NCBI GenBank assembly: GCA_007693765.1
Contig: RECZ01000152.1
Coordinates: 1-64,000 of the forward strand
Source of the DNA: Phycisphaerales bacterium
GTDB lineage: Bacteria; Planctomycetota; Phycisphaerae; Phycisphaerales; UBA1924
Direction of reading: 5' to 3'
DNA length: 64,000 bases
Below the pieces are notes generated by a model, which worked only from the letters and a program-made list of their open reading frames with translations, ran no database searches and was not told the origin of the DNA. The translations under genes were made by a program, and so were the position numbers. This document shows positions 50,454 through 64,000 of this stretch, piece by piece. Each line of letters opens with the position of its first letter. Position 1 is the stretch's first letter.

Positions 50454-51787
50454 ATCGCGCCCGCGGCATCGCCCGGCTGCGTCCGGTGTTCGTCGCGTTG
50501 CTCTGCCTCGTCGCGCTGGCGCCCTCCGGCGGCGCGGCTCTCGCGGAGACGCTGCTGCTGCATTGCGGCGAGTTGCTCGCCACGCCCGGTCAGCGCCCGG
50601 TGCGCGAGGCAACCGTCATCGTCCGCGACGGGCGCATCGTCGATGTTCGCGATGGCTATCTCGACCCGACGCAGGCGCCCGGCGGCGGCGAAGTCCGCGT
50701 CATCGACCTGCGCGACCGGTTCGTGCTCCCGGGTCTGATCGACTGCCACACTCACCTCACCCATGAACTCGCCCCCGACAGCCGCCTCCGCGCCGTCGAG
50801 GACAGCGACGCCATGAGCGCCCTGCGCGGCGTTGCGTACGCGCGGCGCACCCTCCTCGCCGGCTTCACCACCGTGCGCAACGTCGGCTCACGCGGCGACG
50901 CCGGCTTCGCCCTGCGCGACGCCATCAATCAAGGCCTCGTTCCCGGGCCGCGCATCCTCGAGGCGGGGAGAGCCATCACGCCCACGGGCGGGCACGGCGA
51001 TCACACGCACGGCTACCGGCACGACATCTTCGACATCCCCACGCAGATGCAGGGCGTCGCCGACGGGGTGGACGAGTGCCGGCGCGCCGTCCGCTCGCAG
51101 GTGAAGCGCGGCGCGGACGTCATCAAACTCACCGCGACCGGCGGCGTGCTCAGCGCCACCGCGGCGGGCACCGACCGGCAGTTCTTCGAGGATGAGCTCG
51201 AGGCCATCGTCGAGACGGCGCACCTGCTGGGCCGCAAGGTCGCCGCTCACGCCCACGGGACCGACGGCGTCAACGCCGCGCTCCGCGCCGGCGTGGACTC
51301 GATCGAACACGGGACGTACCTCGACGACGAATCGATACGCCTCTTCCTCGAGACGGGCGCGTTCCTCGTGCCGACGCTGCACGCCGGCGACACCGTGGCG
51401 CGGCTCGCGGAGCAGGACGGGTACTTCGTCCCCGCGGTGCGCGCCAAGGCGATGGAGGTCGGCCCCCGCATGCAGGGCATGCTCGCCCGCGCCCACGCCG
51501 CCGGCGTGCGCATCGCCTTCGGCACCGACTGCGGCGTGGGGACGCACGGCGACAACGCCCGCGAGTTCCAGCTCATGGTCGACGCGGGGATGTCGCACGT
51601 CGAGGCCATCATCGCCGCGACCGTCAACGCCGCGGAACTGCTCGGCCTCTCCGACGAGATCGGCACGATCGAGCCCGGCAAGGCCGCGGACATCATCGCC
51701 ACGCGCGGCAGCCCGATTGACGAAGTGGCGCAACTGATGGATGTCGCCTTTGTGATGCGCGCGGGCGTCGTTCACAAGAACGAGTGA
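50450..51787 (+). CDS. Secreted amidohydrolase-family protein
   Basis: A 445-residue enzyme of the imidazolonepropionase/dipeptidase-like amidohydrolase superfamily. A signal peptide (ALLCLVALAPSGGAALAE) suggests export. Metal ligands: HTH in LIDCHTHLTHE, carbamoyl-type Lys in DVIKLTATGG, His in AAHAHGTDG and SIEHGTYLD, and Asp in FGTDCGVGTHG. Ending is the usual GTIEPGKAADIIATRG. Substrate could be an N-acyl amino acid, dipeptide or cyclic imide; not determinable here. The GTG start overlaps tig (GTGA) and its own stop overlaps the SHOCT gene. Confidence 0.88.
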   Translation: MNRARGIARLRPVFVALLCLVALAPSGGAALAETLLLHCGELLATPGQRPVREATVIVRDGRIVDVRDGYLDPTQAPGGGEVRVIDLRDRFVLPGLIDCHTHLTHELAPDSRLRAVEDSDAMSALRGVAYARRTLLAGFTTVRNVGSRGDAGFALRDAINQGLVPGPRILEAGRAITPTGGHGDHTHGYRHDIFDIPTQMQGVADGVDECRRAVRSQVKRGADVIKLTATGGVLSATAAGTDRQFFEDELEAIVETAHLLGRKVAAHAHGTDGVNAALRAGVDSIEHGTYLDDESIRLFLETGAFLVPTLHAGDTVARLAEQDGYFVPAVRAKAMEVGPRMQGMLARAHAAGVRIAFGTDCGVGTHGDNAREFQLMVDAGMSHVEAIIAATVNAAELLGLSDEIGTIEPGKAADIIATRGSPIDEVAQLMDVAFVMRAGVVHKNE

Positions 51788-52215
51788 GCCCGAGCATGCG
51801 CTGGACGCAGATCGCACAGCCCCAAACGCTGCTCGCGTTGAGCGACGCCGGCCGCGCCGTCTTCTGGGTGGCGGCGCTGATCGTCCTCGCGCTCGTCGGT
51901 GGGGCGGTGCTGATGGTGCTGCGGAGGGCGCTTCTCCATCGAGGGGACGACCCGGCGCACACCCCGGTCCTGACCCTCGCCGACCTCCGGGCGATGCGCG
52001 ACAAGGGCGAGATCAACGACGCCGAGTACGCGCGGGCGCGCGAGGTGCTCCTGCGCGAGGCCGGCGCGTCGGCGACACCCAAAGCGCCGCGACGGGACGT
52101 GGTGGGTGGCGCACCCGGGCTCGACCTGACGGGAGACCCGCTCCCGCCACCCGCGGACCGCGGCAAGAAAAAGGGAACGTCCGAAGAACCGCCCGGGGAT
52201 CGTCGGAAGGGCTGA
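51784..52215 (+). CDS. Small membrane protein with SHOCT-like motif
   Basis: A 143-residue protein with one predicted transmembrane helix at about residues 27-47 (VFWVAALIVLALVGGAVLMVL) and a SHOCT-like segment TLADLRAMRDKGEINDAEYARARE (residues about 64-87; SHOCT domains are short C-terminal modules of unknown role). A Lys/Pro-rich tail follows. GTG at 51784 overlaps the amidohydrolase stop (GTGA). Function unknown. Confidence 0.72.
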   Translation: MSPSMRWTQIAQPQTLLALSDAGRAVFWVAALIVLALVGGAVLMVLRRALLHRGDDPAHTPVLTLADLRAMRDKGEINDAEYARAREVLLREAGASATPKAPRRDVVGGAPGLDLTGDPLPPPADRGKKKGTSEEPPGDRRKG

Positions 52216-52352
52216 CCGCCACCCAAACACTGTCAAAAGCGTGTGGATGGCGGACTCGTGTCGAGATTCACGGTCATGACGCCGATACACTGTGCAGGAG
52301 CGCTGCGTGGGTCGCACGCGCCCTTATGTGACGCGGCGAGAGCGAGGAACGC

Positions 52353-53690
52353 ATGGCGAAAGATCGGATCGACGGAGGAGACGGCGCCACCACCCCGGGA
52401 GGTGGCGGCGATGGCGGCGGCGGTGGATTCCGCGGCCGCAAGGTGACCACATGCTCGTTCTGCGGCAAGACCTCCCGCGAGGTCGGCCCCATGGTCGAGG
52501 GCCCGAGCGAGGTCTACATCTGCTCCTCCTGCACCGACCTCTGCCAGAACATCTTCAAGCAGGAAAAGCGGCGCGTCTCGACGGCGCGCCCGGCGCTGGG
52601 CGCCATCCCCTCGCCGCGACAGGTCAAGGAGTTCCTCGACCAGTACGTGATCGGGCAGGACCTCGCCAAGAAGTGTCTCTCGGTTGCCGTCCACACGCAC
52701 TACAAGCGCCTGACGCAGGTCGACAACGAGGCCGCGGGCGTCGAACTCGATAAGTCCAACGTGCTGCTGCTGGGCCCAACGGGCTCCGGCAAGACGCTGC
52801 TCGCCAAGACCATGGCCCGCATGCTCAACGTGCCCTTCGCCATCGGCGACGCCACCACCCTCACCGAGGCGGGCTACGTCGGCGAGGACGTCGAGAACCT
52901 GCTCCTCAAGCTCCTGCAGGGGGCGGACTACGACCTCGAAGCGGCCCAGCGCGGCATCATCTACATCGATGAGATCGACAAGATCGGCAAGACGTCCAAC
53001 AACGTCTCGATCACGCGCGACGTCTCCGGCGAGGGCGTGCAGCAGTCGCTCCTGAAGATGCTCGAGGGCACCATCGCCAACGTCCCCCCGCAGGGCGGGC
53101 GCAAGCACCCCGAGCAGCAGTACATCCAGATGGACACGACGAACATCCTGTTCATCTGCGGCGGCTCGTTCGTGGGCCTCGAAGAGATCATCCGTCGTCG
53201 CATCGGCCAGCGCCGCATCGGCTTCGCCACCGGCCCCGAGCAGTCGACCACCGACGCCGCCAAGCAGACCGAGGAAGTGCTCTCGCAGGTGACTTCGGAG
53301 GACATCCTCGAGTTCGGGCTCATCCCCGAGCTGGTGGGGCGTCTCCCCCTCGTCGTGCCCCTGATGCCGCTCACCCGCAGCGCCCTCGTCTCGATCCTGA
53401 CCGAGCCGCGCAACGCACTCGTGCGGCAGTACCAGCACCTCTTCAGCCTCGAGAACGCCAAGCTCACGTTCACCGACGACGCCCTCCTCGCCATCGCCGA
53501 CCGGGCCATGGAGCGCAAGACGGGCGCCAGAGCCCTCCGCGCCGTGCTCGAGGAGATCATGATGGACCTGCTCTACGACCTCCCCGACGCCGACAACGAG
53601 GGCGCGGAGTACGTCGTGGACGGCGAGGCCATCGGCCGCGGCGGTGTCCGCCTGGCCGACCTGCGGGTGCGCCGGAAGGAATCGGCCTGA
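52353..53690 (+). CDS. clpX: ATP-dependent Clp protease ATP-binding subunit ClpX
   Basis: A 445-residue AAA+ unfoldase that feeds ClpP. The N-terminal zinc finger is CSFCGK...CSSC; then Walker A GPTGSGKT, pore-1 loop [13 protein letters not shown], Walker [11 protein letters not shown], and the sensor-2 GARALR. The C-terminal ClpP-binding IGF-type loop is RRIGFATG. The ATG follows GAGGAA; a possible promoter TACACT is at 52286-52291. No clpP lies between tig and clpX, the usual order. Confidence 0.96.
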
Positions 53691-53761
53691 CCGACACGCC
53701 CGGCCCGCCAAAGCGGCGGGGTCCGAACCGCCCCCTCGAAAAAGGGGCGCGAGGCCACGTA

Positions 53762-53773
53762 TCAACATGTTGA
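53762..53773. promoter_or_regulatory. Perfect palindrome overlapping the marR -35 (candidate operator)
   Basis: TCAACATGTTGA is a 12-bp perfect inverted repeat whose right end overlaps TTGACT (-35) of the marR promoter. Such placement suits autorepression by a MarR-family dimer. Confidence 0.55.
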
Positions 53774-53797
53774 CTTAGCCCGACGCACAGCTACCGT
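53770..53797 (+). promoter_or_regulatory. Promoter of the marR-RND operon
   Basis: TTGACT (53770-53775), 16-base spacer, TACCGT (53792-53797), then the ATG at 53803 five bases later, so the transcript would start at or near the start codon. The spacing fits a sigma-70 promoter. Confidence 0.6.
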
Positions 53798-53802
53798 TGC
53801 CC

Positions 53803-54387
53803 ATGCAGGGCGACGCCGGTCACGAGCGAGAGACGAAAAACGGGCAGAAGTGCTGCGCGGCCAGCGCGCTGCGCGAGGATGCGCCGCTCATCCTCCGCTT
53901 CTTCATGATCCACAACATGACGATGCGCATCGGCGACCGCCTGACGTCGCCGCACGGCCTCACCAGCGCGCGTTGGATGATCCTCTGCACCATCGGCGAG
54001 CGTGAGGAACCACCCACGCTCTCCGAACTCAGCGCCGACGCGATGCTGAGCCTGCAGAACGTGAGCCGCATGGTCACGCTGCTGGAGAAAGAGGGCCACC
54101 TCGAGCGTTTCAACAAGCTGGGCGCGGGGCGCGCCGTCTTCGTGCGCCTCACCGACAAGGGCCGCCGGGCGCAGGAGACGCTGCACACCCTGGGCGATCA
54201 CTTCGACACGCGATTCCTGCACGGCGTGACGCCGAAAGCGCAGGCCGCGCTCGCCCAACAACTCGACCACCTCATCGCCAACCTCGAATCCTTCGAGCAC
54301 GAACTCGACAGCACGACTACCGCCGCACAGCCCGCGGGGCGACGCCCCGGCGACGCCCGCGCGGCGAAGACGGGGAAACAGAAATGA
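53803..54387 (+). CDS. MarR-family transcriptional regulator
   Basis: A 194-residue winged-helix dimer-type repressor. The core TSARWMILCTIGEREEPPTLSELSADAMLSLQNVSRMVTLLEKEGHLERF contains the recognition helix and the wing, with the Leu/Arg-rich flanking helices of MarR. A C-terminal tail is Ala/Arg-rich. The promoter and a perfect palindrome precede it. It overlaps the following membrane-fusion-protein gene (ATGA), so it probably controls the efflux pair. Confidence 0.88.
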   Translation: MQGDAGHERETKNGQKCCAASALREDAPLILRFFMIHNMTMRIGDRLTSPHGLTSARWMILCTIGEREEPPTLSELSADAMLSLQNVSRMVTLLEKEGHLERFNKLGAGRAVFVRLTDKGRRAQETLHTLGDHFDTRFLHGVTPKAQAALAQQLDHLIANLESFEHELDSTTTAAQPAGRRPGDARAAKTGKQK

Positions 54388-55601
54388 CACGACAGATCCA
54401 GCATCTCGCCGCGCTCGTGGCGCTCGTCGCGGCGTGCCCGATCGCGGCCACGGCGCAGCCGGGCTCCGGGGGCGGCCCGCCGCCGGCGCACGTCCGCATC
54501 GCGATGACCACGATGGAGCCGGTCGAACAGCACGCCGTGGTGACGGGCAGCGTGCGCGCGTGGCGTGAATCACGCATCGCCGCCCGCGAGGCGGGGCGCG
54601 TCTTGGTAATCGACGTGCGCGAGGGCGACCTGATCGAGCAGGGGGGTGTGCTCGCCACCCTCGACGACGCGATCCTGCGCATCGAGCTCGACGCCGCACG
54701 GGCTGGCGTCCGCGCCGCCGAGGGCGCCGTGGCCGAGCGGCTAGCCAATCTCAGCAAGGCGGAGCGCGACCTCGACCGCATCACCTCCCTCCGCGCCACG
54801 CGCAGCGCATCGCAGAACGAGTACGACGACGCCGCCACCGAGGTGGAGCGCGCCCGCGCCGCCCTCGATCAGGCCCGCGCCCACGCCGAGCGCGATCGCG
54901 CCGTCGTGCAACTGCTCGAATCGCGCATCGACGACATGACCATCCACGCGCCCTTCACCGGGCGCGTCGGCGCCCGCCTGATCGACGCCGGCGAGTGGGC
55001 CGCGCAGGGCGCGCCCATCGTGCGGCTGGTGGCGACCGAAACGGTGGATGTCTGGCTCGACGTCCCCCAGCAGCACGTCGCGGCGGCGACGCGCGCGGGC
55101 GCTGTGATCACCTTCGAATCACCCGCGCTGGGGCGCACGTTCGAGGCGCCCGTCGCTGGTGTGGGGCCCGTCGGCGACGAATCCGCCCGGACGTTCCCCG
55201 TCCGTCTCACCCTCGACAGCGACGACGAGGCGCTGCGGCCGAGCATGAACGTCGTCGCCCGCGTTCCCGTCGGGGTGGAGGGCCCGTCGCTGCTGGTGCC
55301 GCGCGACGCCCTGCTCCGCGACGACGCCGGCTGGTTCGTCTACACCGCCACGGGCCCCGATGTGGAGAGCATGCTGGCGATCCCCGCCCGTGTCGAGCAG
55401 TTATTCACGGTCGGCTCGCGCCGAGTCGCGGTGCGTGTGATCTCTGGCCCGCTCTTCCCCGGGGCGCCGGTGGTGGTGGAGGGCAACGAGCGCATCCTGT
55501 TCCCCAGCCAGCCGCTGCGCATCACAAACCCCGCCGACCTCGCGCGCCCCGATGCGCCCGCGGACGGGCCGGGTGAAGCCCGTCGGGGCGGGGGCGCGTA
55601 A
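54384..55601 (+). CDS. RND efflux periplasmic adaptor (membrane fusion protein)
   Basis: A 405-residue HlyD/AcrA-type adaptor. Signal peptide at residues 1-25, then a biotinyl-lipoyl-like region (SRIAAREAGRVLVIDVREGDLIEQGGVLATLD), a long coiled-coil hairpin (ERLANLSKAERDLDRIT ... RARAALDQARAHAERDR) and the barrel domain (DDMTIHAPFTGRVGARLIDAGEW). It lacks an obvious lipobox. It joins the RND pump and an outer membrane channel encoded elsewhere. The start overlaps marR by four bases and the RND gene begins immediately after its stop. Confidence 0.9.
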   Translation: MTRQIQHLAALVALVAACPIAATAQPGSGGGPPPAHVRIAMTTMEPVEQHAVVTGSVRAWRESRIAAREAGRVLVIDVREGDLIEQGGVLATLDDAILRIELDAARAGVRAAEGAVAERLANLSKAERDLDRITSLRATRSASQNEYDDAATEVERARAALDQARAHAERDRAVVQLLESRIDDMTIHAPFTGRVGARLIDAGEWAAQGAPIVRLVATETVDVWLDVPQQHVAAATRAGAVITFESPALGRTFEAPVAGVGPVGDESARTFPVRLTLDSDDEALRPSMNVVARVPVGVEGPSLLVPRDALLRDDAGWFVYTATGPDVESMLAIPARVEQLFTVGSRRVAVRVISGPLFPGAPVVVEGNERILFPSQPLRITNPADLARPDAPADGPGEARRGGGA

Positions 55602-58600
55602 ATGGGGCTGCTCCGCCTGTGCATCGAACGGCCGGTCACCGTCGCGGTGGGCGCGATCATCATCGTGCTGCTTGGGCTGCTGAGCCTCAGCGCCACGCCG
55701 GTGCAGCTCACGCCCAACGTCGATCAGACGGTCATCACCGTCACCACCCGCTGGAGCGGCGCCAGCCCCGCCGAGGTGGAGTCGGAGATCGTGCGCCCGC
55801 AGGAGGAGAAGCTCCGCGGCGTGACGAATCTCGTCAAAATGTCCTCCGCCAGCCGGCAGGACGAGGGTTCGATCAATCTCGAGTTCGCGGTCGGGACCAG
55901 CCGCGAGGCGGCCCTGCGCGAAGTATCGGACAAGCTGCGCGAGGTATCGAGATACCCGGACAACGTCGACGAGCCCGTGGTGACCGCGGGAGACGATCGA
56001 AACCGCGACTACATCGCCTGGATCATCGTGCGCAACCCGAACCCAGGGTTCGACGTGCGCGAGATGTACGACTTCTTCGAAGACCGCGTGAAGCCCTTCC
56101 TTGAGCGCGCGGACGGCCTGAGCGAGATCCGCGTGCTGGGCGGGCGCGAGCGCGAGGTGCAGGTGCTGGTGGACGCCGAGGCCATGGCCGCGCGCGGCGT
56201 GACGTTCGATCAGCTCGCCTCCGCGCTGCGCCGCGAGAACGTGAACGCCTCCGCGGGCCAGCTCGCCGAGGGCAAGCGCGACGTCCGCCTGCGCGTCATC
56301 GGTGAGTACGAGAATCTCGAACAGATCCTCGACACCGTCGTCACCGACCGCGCCGCGGTGCCCACGCGGGTGCGCGACATCGCCGAGGCGGTGCTGACGC
56401 TCCGCAAGCCGACGAGCGTGGTGCGGTCCAAGGGCGAGACGGCCCTGGCGATGAACGCCCAGCGCGAGCCGGGCTCGAACGTGCTGCGCGTCATGGACGG
56501 CCTGAAAGGGCGCATCAACGAGTTGAACGCCCCCGGCGGCATGCTTGAGCAGGAGTCGCGCCGGCTCGGCCTCGAGAACAGCGTGCACCTCGATCAGGTG
56601 TACGACCAGACGGTCTACATCAAGAGCTCGCTGGAGTTGGTGCGCAACAACATCTACATCGGCGGCGCGCTGGCCGTGCTGTGCCTGCTCACGTTCCTAC
56701 GCTCGTGGCGGGCGACGATCATCGTTGGCGTCACGATCCCGGTGTCGATCATCGGCTCGTTCGTGGTGCTGGTGCTCCTGGGGCGAAACATCAACGTCAT
56801 CAGCCTCGCGGGCATGGCCTTTGCGGTGGGCATGGTCGTCGACAACGCCATCGTGGTGCTCGAGAACATCTACCGGCGCCGGCAGGCGGGCGACGACGCC
56901 CCCGTCGCTGCGTACCGCGGCGGCGCGGAGGTGTGGGCCGCGGTGCTCGTCTCCACGCTCACCACGGTCATTGTGTTCGTGCCGGTGCTCACCATCGAGG
57001 AGGAGGTCGGCCAGCTCTTCCGAGACATCGCGCTGGCGATCTGCGCCGCGGTGCTGCTCTCGCTCGTCGCCTCCATCACCATCATCCCCGCGGCGACGTC
57101 GCGCCTGCTGCGCAAGCCCGTCGGCTCGACGGGGCGGGACGTCTCCGGGCGTTCTCGCCCGCGACGGGCGTGGGAGCGCATGCGCGTCGGCCTCGCCGAA
57201 CGCGCCTCCGGCGCGCGCGAGTTCTACGGTTCGACGCTGAACAAGACGCTCGGATCGTGGACGATGCGCGCGGGCGTGGTGGCGACGATCTCCATCACGT
57301 CCGCCGTCGGCGCCTTCCTGCTGATACCGCCGGCGACGTACCTCCCCGCGGGCAACCGCAACCTCGTCTTCGCGTTCATGATCCCGCCGCCGGGCTACAA
57401 CCTCGACATGCAGATCGACCTCGGCATGCGCGTCGAAGAGTCGCTGCGCCCGTACTGGGAGGTGCAAGCGGGCACGCCCGAGGCCCGCGCCCTGCCCGCC
57501 ATCTCCATGCGCGACAACCGCGGCCGGATGCGCGAGGTCACGCCGCCCCCGATCGACAACTTCTTTTTCGTCTCCTTCGGCGGCGGCATGTTCATGGGCG
57601 CGATGAGTCAGGAGGAGACGAACGTCGCCCCGCTGGCCAGTCTGCTCTCGCACGCCGCACGCCCGGACGTGCTGCCGGGCGTCTTCAGCGTGCCCTTTCA
57701 GGTGCCGCTCTTCAACGTCGGCGGGTTCGGCGCGGGCAACAGCATCGAGCTGGAAGTCTCCGGCGACGATCTCAACGAGGTGCGCGACGCCGCGTCTGCG
57801 ATCATGGGCGAGGCGTTCGCGCTCGTCGGTGAGGGGGTGTTCCAGTCTGTCCGCCCCGACCCCGGCAACTTCAACATCCCCGCGCAGGAGGTGCAGGTCA
57901 TCCTCGACCGCGTCCGCGCCAGCGAAGTGGGCATGACGGTCGCCGACGCGGCGCTCGTGGTGCAGGCGCTGGGCGACGGCGCGATCGTGGGCGAGTACAC
58001 ACTCGGCGGCGAGCGCATCGATCTGCGTGTCATGGAGCAACGACAGCGCGACTGGCGGGCCCCGGGCCTCTCGTTCCAGGACATGGCGTCGACGCCCGTC
58101 GCCACGCCCTCGGGACGCGTCGTGCCGCTGGGCTCGCTCGCCTCGATGCGCCGGGTCGATTCGCCGCAGCAGATCAACCGCATCGAGTCGCTGCGGAGCG
58201 TGACGCTCTCGATCACCACCGCTCCCGGCACGCCGCTCGAGGCCTCGATGGACGTCGTGCGCGACCGCCTCATCGATCCGCTGCGCGAGCAGGGCGCGAT
58301 CTCGCCCATGGTCCTGACGAACCTCTCCGGCGCCGCGGGCAAGCTCACGCAGGTGCGCGAGACGATGCTGGGCGAGTGGGGTGGCGGCATTCTCGTGTCG
58401 CTCATCTCGCTCTTCACGAGCCGACTGTTCCTGGCGCTGCTGTTCGTCTACCTGCTGATGTGCGCCCTCTTCGAGAGCTGGATGTACCCCTTCGTGATCA
58501 TGGTCAGCGTGCCGCTGGCGCTCATCGGCGGCATCCTCGGCCTGCGCATCGTGCACACATTCGTCCCGACGCAGCAGCTCGACACGCTCACGATGCTGGG

Positions 58601-59147
58601 GTTCGTCATCCTTGTGGGCATCGTGGTCAACAATTCCGTGCTCATCGTCACGCAAGCGCTGAACTTCATGCGCGGCTTCGGCGAGAACGAATTTGACGAC
58701 GTCGAGCGCATGCCGCCCCGCAAGGCCATCGTTGAATCCGCCAAGAGCCGCCTGCGCCCGATCATGATGACCACCAGCACCTCGGTGCTGGGCATGTCGC
58801 CGCTGGTGCTCCAGCCCGGCGCCGGGTCGGAGCTTTACCGAGGCTTGGGCGCCGTGGTGATCGGCGGGCTCCTCTGCTCCTCGATCTTCACGCTCGTGCT
58901 GGCCCCGATGCTCCTGAGCCTCGCGATCGACGGCCGCATCGCCCTGTCGCGCCTCTTCGGCCGCACGTGGGACCCCGGCGAGGTCGTGCGCATCATGGGC
59001 AAGCGGGCGGTCCCGGGAGAGCCGGCGACCGGGCCCGTCGTCGCGACGAGCGCCACGAAGCCCGTGACCGAGTCGCTCAACGGCGCCGGCGCATCAGCGC
59101 GAAGCGGGGCCGAGCCCCACACGACGGGGAGCGGCCAAAAGGATTAG
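55602..59147 (+). CDS. RND efflux transporter (AcrB/HAE1-like)
   Basis: A 1181-residue proton-driven exporter with the usual two-fold arrangement: TM1 (VTVAVGAIIIVLLGLLSLS), a large periplasmic loop, TM2-6 and TM7-12. The proton-relay site in TM4 reads GMAFAVGMVVDNAIVV, with Asp followed by Asn where AcrB has two Asps. This DN pair also occurs in many HAE1 homologues. The last ~60 residues form a cytoplasmic Ala/Gly tail. The likely substrates, solvents or drugs, are inferred from family membership and from the linked MarR regulator. Confidence 0.92.
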   Translation: MGLLRLCIERPVTVAVGAIIIVLLGLLSLSATPVQLTPNVDQTVITVTTRWSGASPAEVESEIVRPQEEKLRGVTNLVKMSSASRQDEGSINLEFAVGTSREAALREVSDKLREVSRYPDNVDEPVVTAGDDRNRDYIAWIIVRNPNPGFDVREMYDFFEDRVKPFLERADGLSEIRVLGGREREVQVLVDAEAMAARGVTFDQLASALRRENVNASAGQLAEGKRDVRLRVIGEYENLEQILDTVVTDRAAVPTRVRDIAEAVLTLRKPTSVVRSKGETALAMNAQREPGSNVLRVMDGLKGRINELNAPGGMLEQESRRLGLENSVHLDQVYDQTVYIKSSLELVRNNIYIGGALAVLCLLTFLRSWRATIIVGVTIPVSIIGSFVVLVLLGRNINVISLAGMAFAVGMVVDNAIVVLENIYRRRQAGDDAPVAAYRGGAEVWAAVLVSTLTTVIVFVPVLTIEEEVGQLFRDIALAICAAVLLSLVASITIIPAATSRLLRKPVGSTGRDVSGRSRPRRAWERMRVGLAERASGAREFYGSTLNKTLGSWTMRAGVVATISITSAVGAFLLIPPATYLPAGNRNLVFAFMIPPPGYNLDMQIDLGMRVEESLRPYWEVQAGTPEARALPAISMRDNRGRMREVTPPPIDNFFFVSFGGGMFMGAMSQEETNVAPLASLLSHAARPDVLPGVFSVPFQVPLFNVGGFGAGNSIELEVSGDDLNEVRDAASAIMGEAFALVGEGVFQSVRPDPGNFNIPAQEVQVILDRVRASEVGMTVADAALVVQALGDGAIVGEYTLGGERIDLRVMEQRQRDWRAPGLSFQDMASTPVATPSGRVVPLGSLASMRRVDSPQQINRIESLRSVTLSITTAPGTPLEASMDVVRDRLIDPLREQGAISPMVLTNLSGAAGKLTQVRETMLGEWGGGILVSLISLFTSRLFLALLFVYLLMCALFESWMYPFVIMVSVPLALIGGILGLRIVHTFVPTQQLDTLTMLGFVILVGIVVNNSVLIVTQALNFMRGFGENEFDDVERMPPRKAIVESAKSRLRPIMMTTSTSVLGMSPLVLQPGAGSELYRGLGAVVIGGLLCSSIFTLVLAPMLLSLAIDGRIALSRLFGRTWDPGEVVRIMGKRAVPGEPATGPVVATSATKPVTESLNGAGASARSGAEPHTTGSGQKD

Positions 59148-59169
59148 TCCGGCCTTGTTGCGGTTCGGC

Positions 59170-60558
59170 TCAGTTGAGATCGGCGCACGCCCACGCGTCG
59201 CGTCCGTCGAGGCGCACCGGCGCGAGCAGATGCAGGCGGATGTCGCCGTCGATCAACGGCCGCACCTTGGGCGCGGCGTCGGTGAACAGGTGCAGCTTTG
59301 GCGGAGCGTCGTCGCGCAGCGCCGGCAGCCCTTCGCCCTTGCACGCCGCGGCCAGAAGCGATGTGTGGGCGCCGGCCCAGTCGCGCACGCTCAACAGGCA
59401 CTTGATCGCCCCGCGGGTGCGCCGGTCGACGAGCAGGTGCAGCACGCCTTCGTCGTCGAGGGCGATCTCCACGCCGGGCGCGAGCGGGCAACGCAGGTCG
59501 GTCGGCGTGAGGCCGCGCAGGCGCAGGGCGAGCGGGCCGCTGTCGGCGCAGATGCGCGTCGCGGTGGATGCGCGCCGCGGGGCCGGGACGTGCGACGCCG
59601 GGGCAGCGGCGTGTGGTTCGGCGTTGCGGGCGCGGACGAACGGCGCGGAGAGATCAGCGCGAGCGTCCGCCTCGGGCGCCGGCGCGGCGGGCATGATCGG
59701 TTCCGGGGGCGCCAAGACGCCGAGTCCCTCGCACCCGGCCACATCGCAGACGAGGCGCAGCAACGTGGCCGCGTCGGTCGCGGTCTCGCCCCGGTGCAGC
59801 GCAGCGCCCATCACGGGGCTCAGGCGTGCGACGCCCGGCTCGAGCGTGAGCGGCGTTTCGAGGAACGTGGACGCGGCGGTGGAGAGTTTCTCGAACGCCT
59901 CCGCGGCCTTCGCCCTGTCGACGCCGGTGAACGCCACGTGGATGCCGACGCTCTCGCCGCGCTCGTCGATGGCGCCGGCGAGCGCCTTGATCGTGCGGTA
60001 CGCGGCGACGGTCGCGGCCTGATCCGCCCCGGCGAGCAGCGTCACACGCGAGATGCCGCGGCAGTGGGCGAGCAGGGGCTCGTCTGTTTCATCGACGCGC
60101 ACGATGAGCCGCCGGCAGGTCGCGCACGCGCGGCGTACGGCGAGGGCGAGGTCGCCGGTCGGTTCGTGGCGGGCGCCCGTGGGCAGCCCGAAGACCTGCA
60201 CCGCGGCGTGCCCGGCGTGGAGACGGATGAAGGCGACGGGTTCGCCGAGTTCGGACGCGACACGGGCCGCGTACTGCGACGCCCACGCCCCGGCCATCGG
60301 CGGCATATGCCCGAAGAGCAACGCCTCGACAACCACCGCGGGGTCGTTCGTCGCCGGCGCGGCGGGCGTCTCGGCGGCATCGTCGAGGTGTGGGTGATCG
60401 ACGGGAGGCGCGGGCGCCGGTCGTGGGACGTCATCGCCCGCGAAATCCTCATCGCTCAAAAAGAGATCGGCCAGCGCGTCATAGTCGTTGGCGTGGTCTC
60501 CGCCGATCGACTGGTGCGCGCTGTGGGCCTCCTGCTCACTGCCGAACCGCATCATCAT
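59170..60558 (-). CDS. Degenerate ParA/MinD-like protein
   Basis: A 462-residue protein. The middle (about 150-290) has ParA/MinD phrasing: SRVTLLAGADQAATVAAYRTIKAL, VGIHVAFTGVDRAKAAEAFEKL. There is no Walker A KGGxGKT, so it is probably non-catalytic. N-terminal ~75 residues are acidic and disordered; the C-terminal ~130 residues (LRLRGLTPTDLRCPLAPGVEIAL, GVLHLLVDRRTRGAIKCLL) form an unknown domain. It starts at 60558, with ATG repeated three times after GGGAGCGAAG. It lies directly downstream of the ParA-CBM48 gene on the same strand, 37 bases away. Confidence 0.65.
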   Translation of the reverse strand: MMMRFGSEQEAHSAHQSIGGDHANDYDALADLFLSDEDFAGDDVPRPAPAPPVDHPHLDDAAETPAAPATNDPAVVVEALLFGHMPPMAGAWASQYAARVASELGEPVAFIRLHAGHAAVQVFGLPTGARHEPTGDLALAVRRACATCRRLIVRVDETDEPLLAHCRGISRVTLLAGADQAATVAAYRTIKALAGAIDERGESVGIHVAFTGVDRAKAAEAFEKLSTAASTFLETPLTLEPGVARLSPVMGAALHRGETATDAATLLRLVCDVAGCEGLGVLAPPEPIMPAAPAPEADARADLSAPFVRARNAEPHAAAPASHVPAPRRASTATRICADSGPLALRLRGLTPTDLRCPLAPGVEIALDDEGVLHLLVDRRTRGAIKCLLSVRDWAGAHTSLLAAACKGEGLPALRDDAPPKLHLFTDAAPKVRPLIDGDIRLHLLAPVRLDGRDAWACADLN

Positions 60559-60595
60559 GCTTCGCTCCCGAAGCGGTGGGGGTGGTCTCTCTCGC

Positions 60596-62074
60596 TCAGG
60601 CGTTGGACCCGCCGGGAGCGTGCGTCGGATCGATCATACCCGGCGAAGACGGACGCACGATCACCACGCTGTTGCGTTGACCGAAGGGGTTGGTCTCGGT
60701 GTCCGGGTTCCGTTCATCCGTGAGCCATTTCCCATCCACCACCAGGCGGTAATGCGTCTTGCCGGGCGGCAGGGCGACGGTCGTCTCGTGGCATCGGCTG
60801 GCCTCGTTCCACCGCAGCGGGTGCGTGTCCGGGGACCAGCCGTTGAAATCGCCCGCGACGCACACGCGGCTGTGGGCGGGGGCGTCGCACACGAACCGCA
60901 CGCTGCGCAGTTCGCTCGCCCGTTCGTTGCTGATCGGCGGGGAGGCGGGCGCGGGGGACACGGGTTTGGGCTCGTCGAGGATATCCGGCGCCGGCGTCAC
61001 ATTCGGATCAGAGGCGAGACGCGTCTGCAGCGTCTCGCTCTTGTGCACCAGTTGGCGCACTCTCGCTGCGAGTTCCGCCGCGCGGCTGAGGACCGGGTCA
61101 GCCGCGTCGGCGGGTGCGGGGCGTTCGTTGAGGCCGGTGTGCGCGGCGGCGGCGCCCGCGTCCGTTGACGGCGAGTTTTCGTCGTCGGTCTGCGGATCTG
61201 CTTCACCCATGGGCGTCTCGAACACCGCGATGCCGGCGTGCTCCGGCGCTGCGCGGCGTGCGGGCGGGTTGGCGGTGATCCACGTGCCCAGGCGTGCGTA
61301 GTCCTGCGCGCCGGTGGACATCGGCGCGTACTCAATCACAGGCTGGCCGAGCGACGTGGCCTCGCGCAGTTTCTGATCGAGCCGGATGACAACGGGCGCC
61401 ATCGACTCGGGGAACTGTGCGCCGATCTCGTTGAGGATCGACGCCGCGAGCGGGTGCGAGGCGTCGTGCATTGTCGCGAGCAGGCGGTAGGGGGTGGCGC
61501 CGCCGAGCCGACGCGCGAGCATGCGGATGGTGTTGACCTGCTTCGATGCGCCCTTCATCGCGAAGTAGCTTGTCTCGACGGGGATGAGCGCCTCGGTCGC
61601 GGCCCGGAGAGCGTTGTACGTGAGCAGTCCGATGGAGGGCGGGCAGTCGATCACGACCCATTCGTAGCGCGACGCGTCCGGCTGGTCCGAGGGCCCCGCG
61701 GCGAGGCGACGGATGACGCTCTGGAGACGCTGGTCGCGGTCTTCCACCGCGGCGAGCCCGCCGCGTGCGGCCTCGAGGCCCGCGAGACGCATCGTGCTCG
61801 GCAGCAGATCGAGCCCCTTGGTGATGCGCCAGAGCAGGCGCGTCGCGTCCAGCGGCGCATCAGGGTCGGAGAGCAACGCGTCCCCGACGTGCTGGTCGAT
61901 GCGGTGCTCGGGGATGGCCAGACCCGCGGCGCAGTGGCTCTGCGGGTCGAGGTCAACGAGGAGGGTCGGGTGGTCGAGGCGGGCGAGCACCGACGCGAGG
62001 TTGATCGCGGTGGTGGTCTTGCCGCAGCCGCCCTTTTGGTTGAGTATCGCGACGACTCGCACGTAGGGCCTCAT
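60596..62074 (-). CDS. ParA-family ATPase fused to a glycogen-binding (CBM48/AMPK-type) domain
   Basis: A 492-residue two-module protein. Residues 1-~270 are a ParA ATPase: deviant Walker A ILNQKGGCGKTTTAINLA, LLVDLDPQSHCAAGLA (Walker A'), EWVVIDCPPSIGLLTYNAL (Walker B) and IPVETSYFAMKG. A ~120-residue acidic linker follows. Residues ~400-480 match the AMPK-beta/CBM48 glycogen-binding fold (VRFVCDAPAHSRVCVAGDFN, GWSPDTHPLRWN, ETTVALPPGKTHYRLVVDG). ParA positions DNA or cargo by ATP-dependent gradients. The carbohydrate module suggests a polysaccharide or glycogen cargo. The ATG at 62074 lacks a Shine-Dalgarno sequence; no parB is adjacent. Confidence 0.88.
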   Translation of the reverse strand: MRPYVRVVAILNQKGGCGKTTTAINLASVLARLDHPTLLVDLDPQSHCAAGLAIPEHRIDQHVGDALLSDPDAPLDATRLLWRITKGLDLLPSTMRLAGLEAARGGLAAVEDRDQRLQSVIRRLAAGPSDQPDASRYEWVVIDCPPSIGLLTYNALRAATEALIPVETSYFAMKGASKQVNTIRMLARRLGGATPYRLLATMHDASHPLAASILNEIGAQFPESMAPVVIRLDQKLREATSLGQPVIEYAPMSTGAQDYARLGTWITANPPARRAAPEHAGIAVFETPMGEADPQTDDENSPSTDAGAAAAHTGLNERPAPADAADPVLSRAAELAARVRQLVHKSETLQTRLASDPNVTPAPDILDEPKPVSPAPASPPISNERASELRSVRFVCDAPAHSRVCVAGDFNGWSPDTHPLRWNEASRCHETTVALPPGKTHYRLVVDGKWLTDERNPDTETNPFGQRNSVVIVRPSSPGMIDPTHAPGGSNA

Positions 62075-62251
62075 CGTGGAGGGGGTGAGGTCGCGCGTAC
62101 GCCGCCCGCTGCGGCGAACGCCCGTGTCGGTGTTCAGTCGACTTATCGGGCGACGCGACTTCTGCGCTTCACAATGCGTCGTGGACGGGGGGCCGGGCTG
62201 GTCCACGGGTAGTGGATGACCGGCGACAAAGACCCCCCTGAAAACGGGTAA

Positions 62252-63448
62252 TCAGGTGGCCCGCATGGCGTTGACGCCCGCCGCGACGGCGTCGCGGTCG
62301 GGGTCCACGATGACCCGGGCGCGGCCCAGCGCCGTGGGCACAATGACCCGCAATTTGCCCGAGGCGACCTTCTTGTCGTGCCCCATCGCCTCGACGACGC
62401 GCTCGGTGGAGGGCAGGTCGCGCACGCTCGTGGGCAGCCCCGCGCGCCGGAGCGCCTCGAGCAGGGCGGGCAGGACGTCGGCGTCGGTCAGCCCCAGCGC
62501 CTCGCCGCAGGCGCACGCCCCGACGAGGCCGAGGGCCACCGCCTCGCCGTGCTGCAGCGGCGTGTGTTCGGGGCGGCCGTCGGGGGAGAGTTGCGGCATG
62601 GTCTCGATGGCGTGGGCGAACGTGTGGCCGAGGTTGAGCAGCATGCGGCTGCTCGCGCCGTTGCTCTGGCCGTCGGATTCTTCTCGCTCATCCTGAGCGA
62701 CGACGTGCGCCTTGATGCGCACGTTGCGGGAGATGAGTTCCTGCAACGTCGCGGCGTCGCGGTGCAGCGCCCCCGCGGCGTGCTGGGTCGTCCACGCCAG
62801 CAGGTCCGGGTCGCCCGCGTCGGCGCTGAGCAGGCCGTGCTTGACGCACTCGGCCAGGCCGGCTCGGAGCTGCCGGTCGGGGAGCGTGTCGAGCGCGCGG
62901 GTGTCGGCGAGGACGAGCGAGGGCTGCCAGATCGCGCCGGCCATGTTCTTGCGAAGTCCCGATTCGGTGCGCAGGTTGACGCCGGTCTTCCCGCCCACGC
63001 TCGCGTCCACCATGGAGAGCAGCGTCGTGGGGCAGTGGATCACCGGCACGCCGCGCCGGTAGACGGCCGCGACGAACCCCGCGATGTCGCCCGTCACACC
63101 GCCGCCGAGCGAGATCACCGGGTCGTTCCGCTCGTGGCGCGACTCGACGAGGTCTTCGAGGATGCGCCCCGCCGCGTCGAGCGTCTTTTCTGTCTCCACG
63201 GCGCGCACGCCCGCGGAGGACACGACGAAGTTGTGATGCGCGAGGGCGCGGGTGGCGTCGACGAGCATCTCCTGCGGCAGGCCCTCGTCGAACACCACGA
63301 AGACGCGACGCGGGCTCATCCGCTCGGCGAGGATTTCGCCCAGGCGCACGAGCAGACGGGGCCCGACGAGCACCTCGTAGGGCCGATCGGCGAGGGGCAC
63401 CGGGATGGAGACAGCGTCGTCGAGTCGCATGGGTGTCTGGGGGAGCAT
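62252..63448 (-). CDS. aroB: 3-dehydroquinate synthase
   Basis: Second step of the shikimate pathway, DAHP to 3-dehydroquinate, NAD- and metal-dependent. 398 residues. The NAD-site SLGGGVTGDIAGFVAAVYRRG, VIHCPTTLLSMVDASVGGKTG, catalytic/zinc LAECVKHGL (Glu), NLGHTFAHAIE (His) and QHGEAVALG (His) are all present. Two Met starts are in the N-terminus (63448 and 63430); family similarity begins near MRLDDAV. 177 bases separate it from the ParA-CBM48 gene on the same strand. Confidence 0.94.
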   Translation of the reverse strand: MLPQTPMRLDDAVSIPVPLADRPYEVLVGPRLLVRLGEILAERMSPRRVFVVFDEGLPQEMLVDATRALAHHNFVVSSAGVRAVETEKTLDAAGRILEDLVESRHERNDPVISLGGGVTGDIAGFVAAVYRRGVPVIHCPTTLLSMVDASVGGKTGVNLRTESGLRKNMAGAIWQPSLVLADTRALDTLPDRQLRAGLAECVKHGLLSADAGDPDLLAWTTQHAAGALHRDAATLQELISRNVRIKAHVVAQDEREESDGQSNGASSRMLLNLGHTFAHAIETMPQLSPDGRPEHTPLQHGEAVALGLVGACACGEALGLTDADVLPALLEALRRAGLPTSVRDLPSTERVVEAMGHDKKVASGKLRVIVPTALGRARVIVDPDRDAVAAGVNAMRAT

Positions 63449-63482
63449 CGGTCAGGCATGTACGCCGCTCCAGCGGGAGGGT

Positions 63483-64000
63483 TCACTCCCATTCGATCGT
63501 TGCGGGCGGTTTGCTGGAGATGTCGTACACCACCCTGTTCACCCCCCGGACCTCGTTGATGATCCGGTTGGAGATCGTGGCCAGGATGTCGTAGGGGATG
63601 CGCGACCAGTCGGCGGTCATGAAGTCCTGCGTCTCGACGGCGCGCACCGCGACGACGTTCTCGTACGTCCGCCCGTCGCCCATCACGCCCACGCTCTGCA
63701 CCGGCAGCAGCACGGCGAAGACCTGGCTCGTCGAGCGGTACAGGTTGGCGCTGACGATCTCTTCGAGCAGGATCTCGTCGCAATCGCGCAGGACCTCCAG
63801 CTTCTCACGCGTGACCTCGCCCAGCACGCGCACCGCGAGCCCGGGCCCGGGGAAGGGGTGGCGCCAGATGAACTGGTCGGGCAGGCCCAGCACCTCGCCG
63901 AGCTTGCGCACCTCGTCCTTGAACAGGTCGCGCAGCGGCTCGACGAGCTCGAACCCGAGGTCCGCCGGCAGCCCGCCGACGTTGTGGTGGAGCTTGATGT
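63483..64000 (-). CDS. guaA: GMP synthase, C-terminal part (runs off window)
   Basis: Converts XMP to GMP with glutamine. Only the C-terminal part is inside the window, and the frame is open to position 64000, so it continues beyond. Seen: [57 protein letters not shown] and the terminal [18 protein letters not shown], the conserved GuaA end. No start is within the sequence. Confidence 0.95.

Follow-up and report, generated by a model that had tools for sequence, protein, structure and literature searches.

What does a ParA-type ATPase joined to a glycogen-binding domain act upon, and what is the part of the MinD-like protein encoded next to it? These questions are raised by two adjacent genes, here called A and B, of a Phycisphaerales bacterium, found in a stretch of 64,000 nucleotides (contig RECZ01000152.1, positions 1 to 64,000; the window). 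ParA/MinD ATPases determine where in the cell chromosomes, plasmids, carboxysomes, chemoreceptors and flagella are placed, and a separate adaptor protein is normal in such systems. A preliminary description of the locus had proposed a positioning ATPase with an inactive partner, resembling McdA/McdB and MinD/MinE, that might distribute glycogen or another polysaccharide granule between daughter cells.

The pair is laid out as follows:

60596-62074, minus strand: gene A, open reading frame of 492 aa, ParA-type ATPase with an AMPK-type carbohydrate-binding domain (CBM)
60559-60595, minus strand: A-B intergenic gap of 37 bp, B lying downstream of A
59170-60558, minus strand: gene B, open reading frame of 462 aa, partner protein

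The start site of gene A is the same in its orthologues. Lying on the same strand and only 37 bp apart, A and B are probably co-transcribed. RNA-fold prediction across the A-B junction revealed nothing out of the ordinary, and no RNA family matched positions 51000-64000 of the window.

Protein A is a ParA-type ATPase carrying a carbohydrate-binding domain

The following features were located in A:

61250-62074, minus strand: ParA domain, residues 1-275, KGGCGKTT and DLDPQ intact
62012-62035, minus strand: deviant Walker A, KGGCGKTT, residues 14-21, with an unusual conserved Cys
61457-61459, minus strand: Ser206, aligned with Soj R189 and Caulobacter ParA R195, the Arg being lost here
61010-61093, minus strand: linker helix, residues 328-355 (SRAAELAARVRQL...), from the AF2 model
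60650-60910, minus strand: AMPK-type CBM (CBM48-like), residues 389-475, with W413, R443, W450, G465 and N468; PF16561

By motifs and fold A is a member of the ParA/MinD (Walker A cytoskeletal ATPase) family. The Pfam family AAA_31 matched at 3e-35, and comparison with Soj (9a6n) gave a VIA Z of 36.8 and an rmsd of 1.8 over 251 aligned residues, placing A within the ParA fold; identity to Soj/ParA was 36-38% over 250 residues. KGGxGKT was present in all 145 A orthologues and DxDPQ in 137 of them. Val is the usual residue at x in the ParA Walker A, and Cys (KGGCGKT) was found in 131 of the 145. A PHROGs search returned a generic ParA match and nothing more, and the best NCBIfam match, BcsQ (TIGR03371; 1.6e-26), scored 93.3 bits, below the curated cut-off of 157.85.

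Two positions are relevant to DNA binding. Ser206 replaces the first arginine, and Lys235 aligns with Soj R218, by Soj numbering and the alignments the second position of nonspecific DNA binding. Loss of the first arginine (Soj R189, Caulobacter ParA R195) abolishes DNA binding (PMC10120649; for the role of Arg see also PMC7229837). However, DNA-binding residues are in general poorly conserved across the ParA superfamily (PMC7229837), so that one lost arginine is not proof of lost nucleoid binding. Neither parB nor parS had been noticed at the locus, and neither was found by a directed search: the whole window held no match to TGTTTCACGTGAAACA at up to three mismatches, and no parB was present at the locus, B having no family match and a different fold and no other conserved neighbour fitting the part.

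The segment that follows the ParA domain had been described as an acidic linker. It is indeed mostly disordered (residues 280-326), yet it holds a conserved helix, modelled at residues 328-355, in which Arg331 is invariant (alignment A2). Beyond it PF16561 (AMPK1_CBM) matched residues 403-476 with 42.5 bits, over the gathering cut-off of 26.8, and the structure model of this region is confident, so that the fusion of an intact ParA module to a CBM is confirmed. Profile comparison with AMPK beta-2 (2f15) gave 2.8e-13, and the nearest solved CBMs are those of AMPK beta and the glucan phosphatases. PF16561 had a single match in the genome, namely gene A.

In AMPK beta a change of W100 or K126 abolishes glycogen binding and a change of W133 or G147 reduces it (PMC6274970). 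In the alignment these four residues correspond to W413, R443, W450 and G465 of A. Conservation over 122 distinct CBM-bearing orthologues was 96% for W413, 93% for R443, 89% for W450, 94% for G465 and 82% for N468, the median column reaching 55%. Judged by these residues, the CBM of A keeps its glucan contacts and looks functional for sugar.

Protein B is a predicted pseudo-ATPase

B had no family match in Pfam, NCBIfam or PHROGs, and a Pfam scan of 42 B members gave just scattered single weak matches. Its AF2 model (mean pLDDT 82) suggests three parts:

60457-60489, minus strand: N-terminal helix motif, residues 24-34 (YDALADLFL), modelled with low confidence, motif conserved
59719-60339, minus strand: MinD/FlhG-fold domain without P-loop, residues 74-280, from AF2 with structure and profile searches
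60283-60312, minus strand: GHMPPMAGAW, residues 83-92, a conserved G-H-L-P-type motif at the P-loop site within that domain
59173-59556, minus strand: C-terminal alpha/beta domain, residues 335-462, AF2 pLDDT above 90 over most of it

The middle domain aligned with FlhG/FleN (4rz2) over 167 residues with a VIA Z of 12.0 and an rmsd of 3.2, values that mark a MinD-like fold. The Foldseek value for FlhG/FleN was 1.3e-6, and the profile of B matched FlhG at 1e-5 and FleN at 6e-5. At the P-loop position GK[ST] was absent from 42 of 42 sequences in each of two B alignments, and G83, P86 and W92 of the motif found there are invariant (alignment A1). Sequence and model together indicate that B is a P-loop-less protein of the MinD/FlhG fold, presumably a dead relative of the ATPase in A. 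The preliminary description of B as MinD-like but lacking Walker A was therefore accurate for the middle domain, but it missed two further parts: the N-terminal helix, whose L29, F33, L34 region is conserved, and the C-terminal domain, in which P358 and W394 are invariant.

Distribution, neighbourhood and loss of the CBM

A strong match to A was found in about 98 of 101 relatives. G026 and G054 gave matches no better than the level of the second ParA, and G065 has a divergent A that was found by profile. B was detected by BLAST in 92 of the 101, with a few more by profile. Such a distribution indicates that A and B are not there by chance. Of the 83 loci having B, 81 had it directly downstream of A and in the same orientation; the pair is thus conserved together, as its proposed joint function had presupposed.

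Full-length ParA-CBM fusions were seen in Phycisphaerales, Sedimentisphaerales and related Phycisphaerae. Among the matches listed in a phylum-wide sample, those of genomes from outside the class were similar to the ParA part only. Among the sampled genomes the fusion is limited to the class Phycisphaerae, where it is near universal. In one record titled 'Cyanobacteria bacterium' (RHKP01000016.1, L128; also L196) the A gene does not differ from the one found in a member of the Phycisphaerales (G033), and the title of RHKP01000016.1 is probably a mislabel.

The only recurrent neighbours beyond A and B were aroB, rsfS and clpX, and neither these nor the RND pump gave a functional clue. In the window, a probable regulator, an HlyD-type periplasmic adaptor and an RND transporter of 1181 residues occupy 53797-59147 on the strand opposite to B, pointing at B, and are preceded by clpX (52353-53690).

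A tree of 117 ParA domains, built with FastTree, showed at least six state changes for the CBM, four for an adjacent B and five for the Soj R189 position. About five losses of the CBM fell within the clade of the window, ParA and B staying paired, and CBM-less A proteins lie inside the 62-row clade that contains the window. With loci cut by contig ends set aside, B was retained at all examined CBM-less A loci but one. In Phycisphaerales, ParA and B are the constant core and the CBM is optional; some lineages have retained the CBM throughout and others have lost it. On the other hand, A with its CBM stood without a B in the locus in 33 cases, almost all of them belonging to other lineages of the class, indicating that B is not essential to every version of the system.

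Basic residues at the Soj R189 and R218 positions were counted by locus type. For CBM loci lacking B the counts were 33/33 and 32/33, for loci with both CBM and B 25/68 and 40/68, and for CBM-less loci with B 0/15 and 0/15. The counts are non-independent, one early loss accounting for most of the first position. Loss of the R189-position arginine apparently goes back mainly to a single event, and the CBM losses fall within the clade concerned. When CBM loss and arginine loss were compared by independent-pairs tests, significance was not reached, the independent events being too few.

Function of the A-B pair

The explanation that we tentatively favour is that the two proteins form an orphan switch of ParA type belonging to the class Phycisphaerae, in which B would be a pseudo-ATPase regulator and the CBM an optional tether or sensor. 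A would alternate between an ATP-bound dimer and a monomer. B, presumably unable to bind ATP in the usual manner, would serve as its dedicated adaptor or regulator, docking on A through the N-terminal helix and/or the pseudo-NTPase face, and the C-terminal domain of B may contact the cargo or anchor. The CBM would tether A to, or let it sense, an alpha-glucan or glucose oligomer. The nucleoid was the probable matrix of the ancestral ParA; in the clade of the window one DNA-binding arginine is gone, and use of the nucleoid may be weaker there or replaced. An ATPase working with a partner, as initially suggested, is plausible, but the likeness to McdA/McdB and MinD/MinE holds as an analogy only.

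It is also possible, although unlikely, that the pair serves polysaccharide secretion in the manner of BcsQ/BcsE, an exopolysaccharide machine having A as its ATPase chaperone and B as the adaptor. BcsE, built of degenerate domains, recruits BcsQ (PMC7439463), BcsQ is the best NCBIfam match of A, and A aligns with BcsQ folds at a Z of about 27. However, A is much nearer to Soj (Z 36.8) than to BcsQ (Z 27.5), its TIGR03371 score is 93 against a cut-off of 158, and no synthase or export gene adjoins the A-B pair.

The partitioning of glycogen granules, with the CBM hooking particles that A spreads over the nucleoid to the daughter cells, agrees with the conserved contact residues of the CBM and with an alpha-glucan phosphorylase, which was found in the genome itself and in 79 of 101 relatives. 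The only linkage to a glucan enzyme that was seen comes from a single genus: in two of its genomes (L074 in G085:C1, and G094:C32) about 5.5 kb separate a GH57 branching-enzyme domain from the ParA-CBM gene. In the genome of the window, however, nothing exceeded the cut-off for GlgA, generic glycosyltransferase-like matches being the only ones, and GlgC, GlgB and GH57 branching enzyme gave no match at the thresholds used. A GlgA over the cut-off occurred in 1 of 101 relatives (G070:C1:397906-400608, adjoined by a GlgC-like gene). Four relatives (G010, G028, G031, G056) have the CBM fusion and no canonical GlgA, GlgB or GlgP, and presence of the CBM was not associated with canonical glycogen genes. 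The genomes are draft metagenome assemblies, in which single absences are weak, and the argument lies in the pattern across many. These results suggest that granules are unlikely as a general cargo, unless made by a non-canonical route (GT3/GT4 synthases, GlgE). Together with the several losses of the CBM from loci that kept ParA and B, they speak against the granule-sorting role first put forward, which we now consider distinctly improbable; the ligand may still be alpha-glucans of other origin, or oligosaccharides.

Equally hard to favour is a purely metabolic sensor, in which the CBM would read intracellular glucan or oligosaccharide as AMPK beta does and tune the ParA switch, with no granule cargo and with outputs such as chromosome or division timing. 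The kinship of the CBM to AMPK beta and the glucan phosphatases is consistent with such a sensor, and a dispensable CBM would suit an accessory input, but no downstream target was identified and the genome has a second, ordinary ParA for chromosome duties. That second ParA lies at G000:C171:30171-30959 (L192), with a MurJ-like gene, not parB, downstream.

A flagellar role, in which B as a relative of FlhG would set flagellum number with A, is suggested by the FlhG/FleN-like fold of B and by FliG in 85 of 101 genomes, this one included, but is largely refuted and barely credible, as A and B are kept in 14 of 16 FliG-less relatives, indicating that the fold does not imply such a role, and no flagellar gene lies near the pair.

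Comparison with known systems

With the Soj/ParA chromosome partition ATPases, A shares the fold, the deviant Walker A, DxDPQ and Walker B. It differs in the fused CBM and linker helix, in the replacement, within the clade of the window, of one of the two DNA-binding arginines, and in the window having neither ParB nor parS. The McdA/McdB system for carboxysome positioning likewise combines a ParA-like ATPase with a dedicated gene neighbour, and A aligns with McdA at a Z of 29. However, the Walker A of McdA is SGGQGKT (PMC9178275) and that of A is KGGCGKT, which leaves the pair outside the McdAB systems; B, a predicted folded pseudo-ATPase of MinD/FlhG type, is unlike McdB and unlike MinE.

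The BcsRQ-BcsE system of cellulose secretion also pairs a ParA-like ATPase with an adaptor of catalytically dead domains (PMC7439463), but those of BcsE are REC and GGDEF and that of B is MinD/FlhG-like, and cellulose genes are absent near A-B. FlhG/FleN shares the fold of residues 74-280 of B (Z 12; profile 1e-5); B differs in having no Walker A, in its additional N-terminal helix and C-terminal domain, and in being present in FliG-less genomes. In CBM family and contact residues A resembles AMPK beta, the plant glucan phosphatases LSF1/SEX4 and PTST, the last of which combines a CBM48 with a coiled coil and places an enzyme on starch (PMC4339375), but the CBM of A is joined to a ParA ATPase, in bacteria.

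In open-licence papers we found no ParA-CBM fusion, no ParA with AMPK1_CBM and no Phycisphaerae glycogen associated with ParA. A ParA with a partner is already known; in that literature no counterpart was found for the glucan module fused to A or for a pseudo-ATPase partner of FlhG type. That the locus represents the first ParA/MinD-type spatial switch to recognise a polysaccharide tether or cargo directly, by a glucan-binding domain fused to it, under the control of a pseudo-ATPase from the same fold family, and that it is ancestral to the class, is a possibility on the doubtful side. If true, the range of cargoes or anchors of ParA/MinD ATPases would widen to polysaccharides. The A-B pair also opens cell organisation in the Phycisphaerae, hardly studied so far, to experimental test, and the repeated loss of the CBM across sister lineages provides a natural experiment.

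Small proteins consisting approximately of an AMPK-type CBM alone, in open frames of about 105-206 aa, were seen in many relatives, for example at G036:C1:2749190-2749375, G018:C22:17859-18044 and G004:C144:10929-11114.
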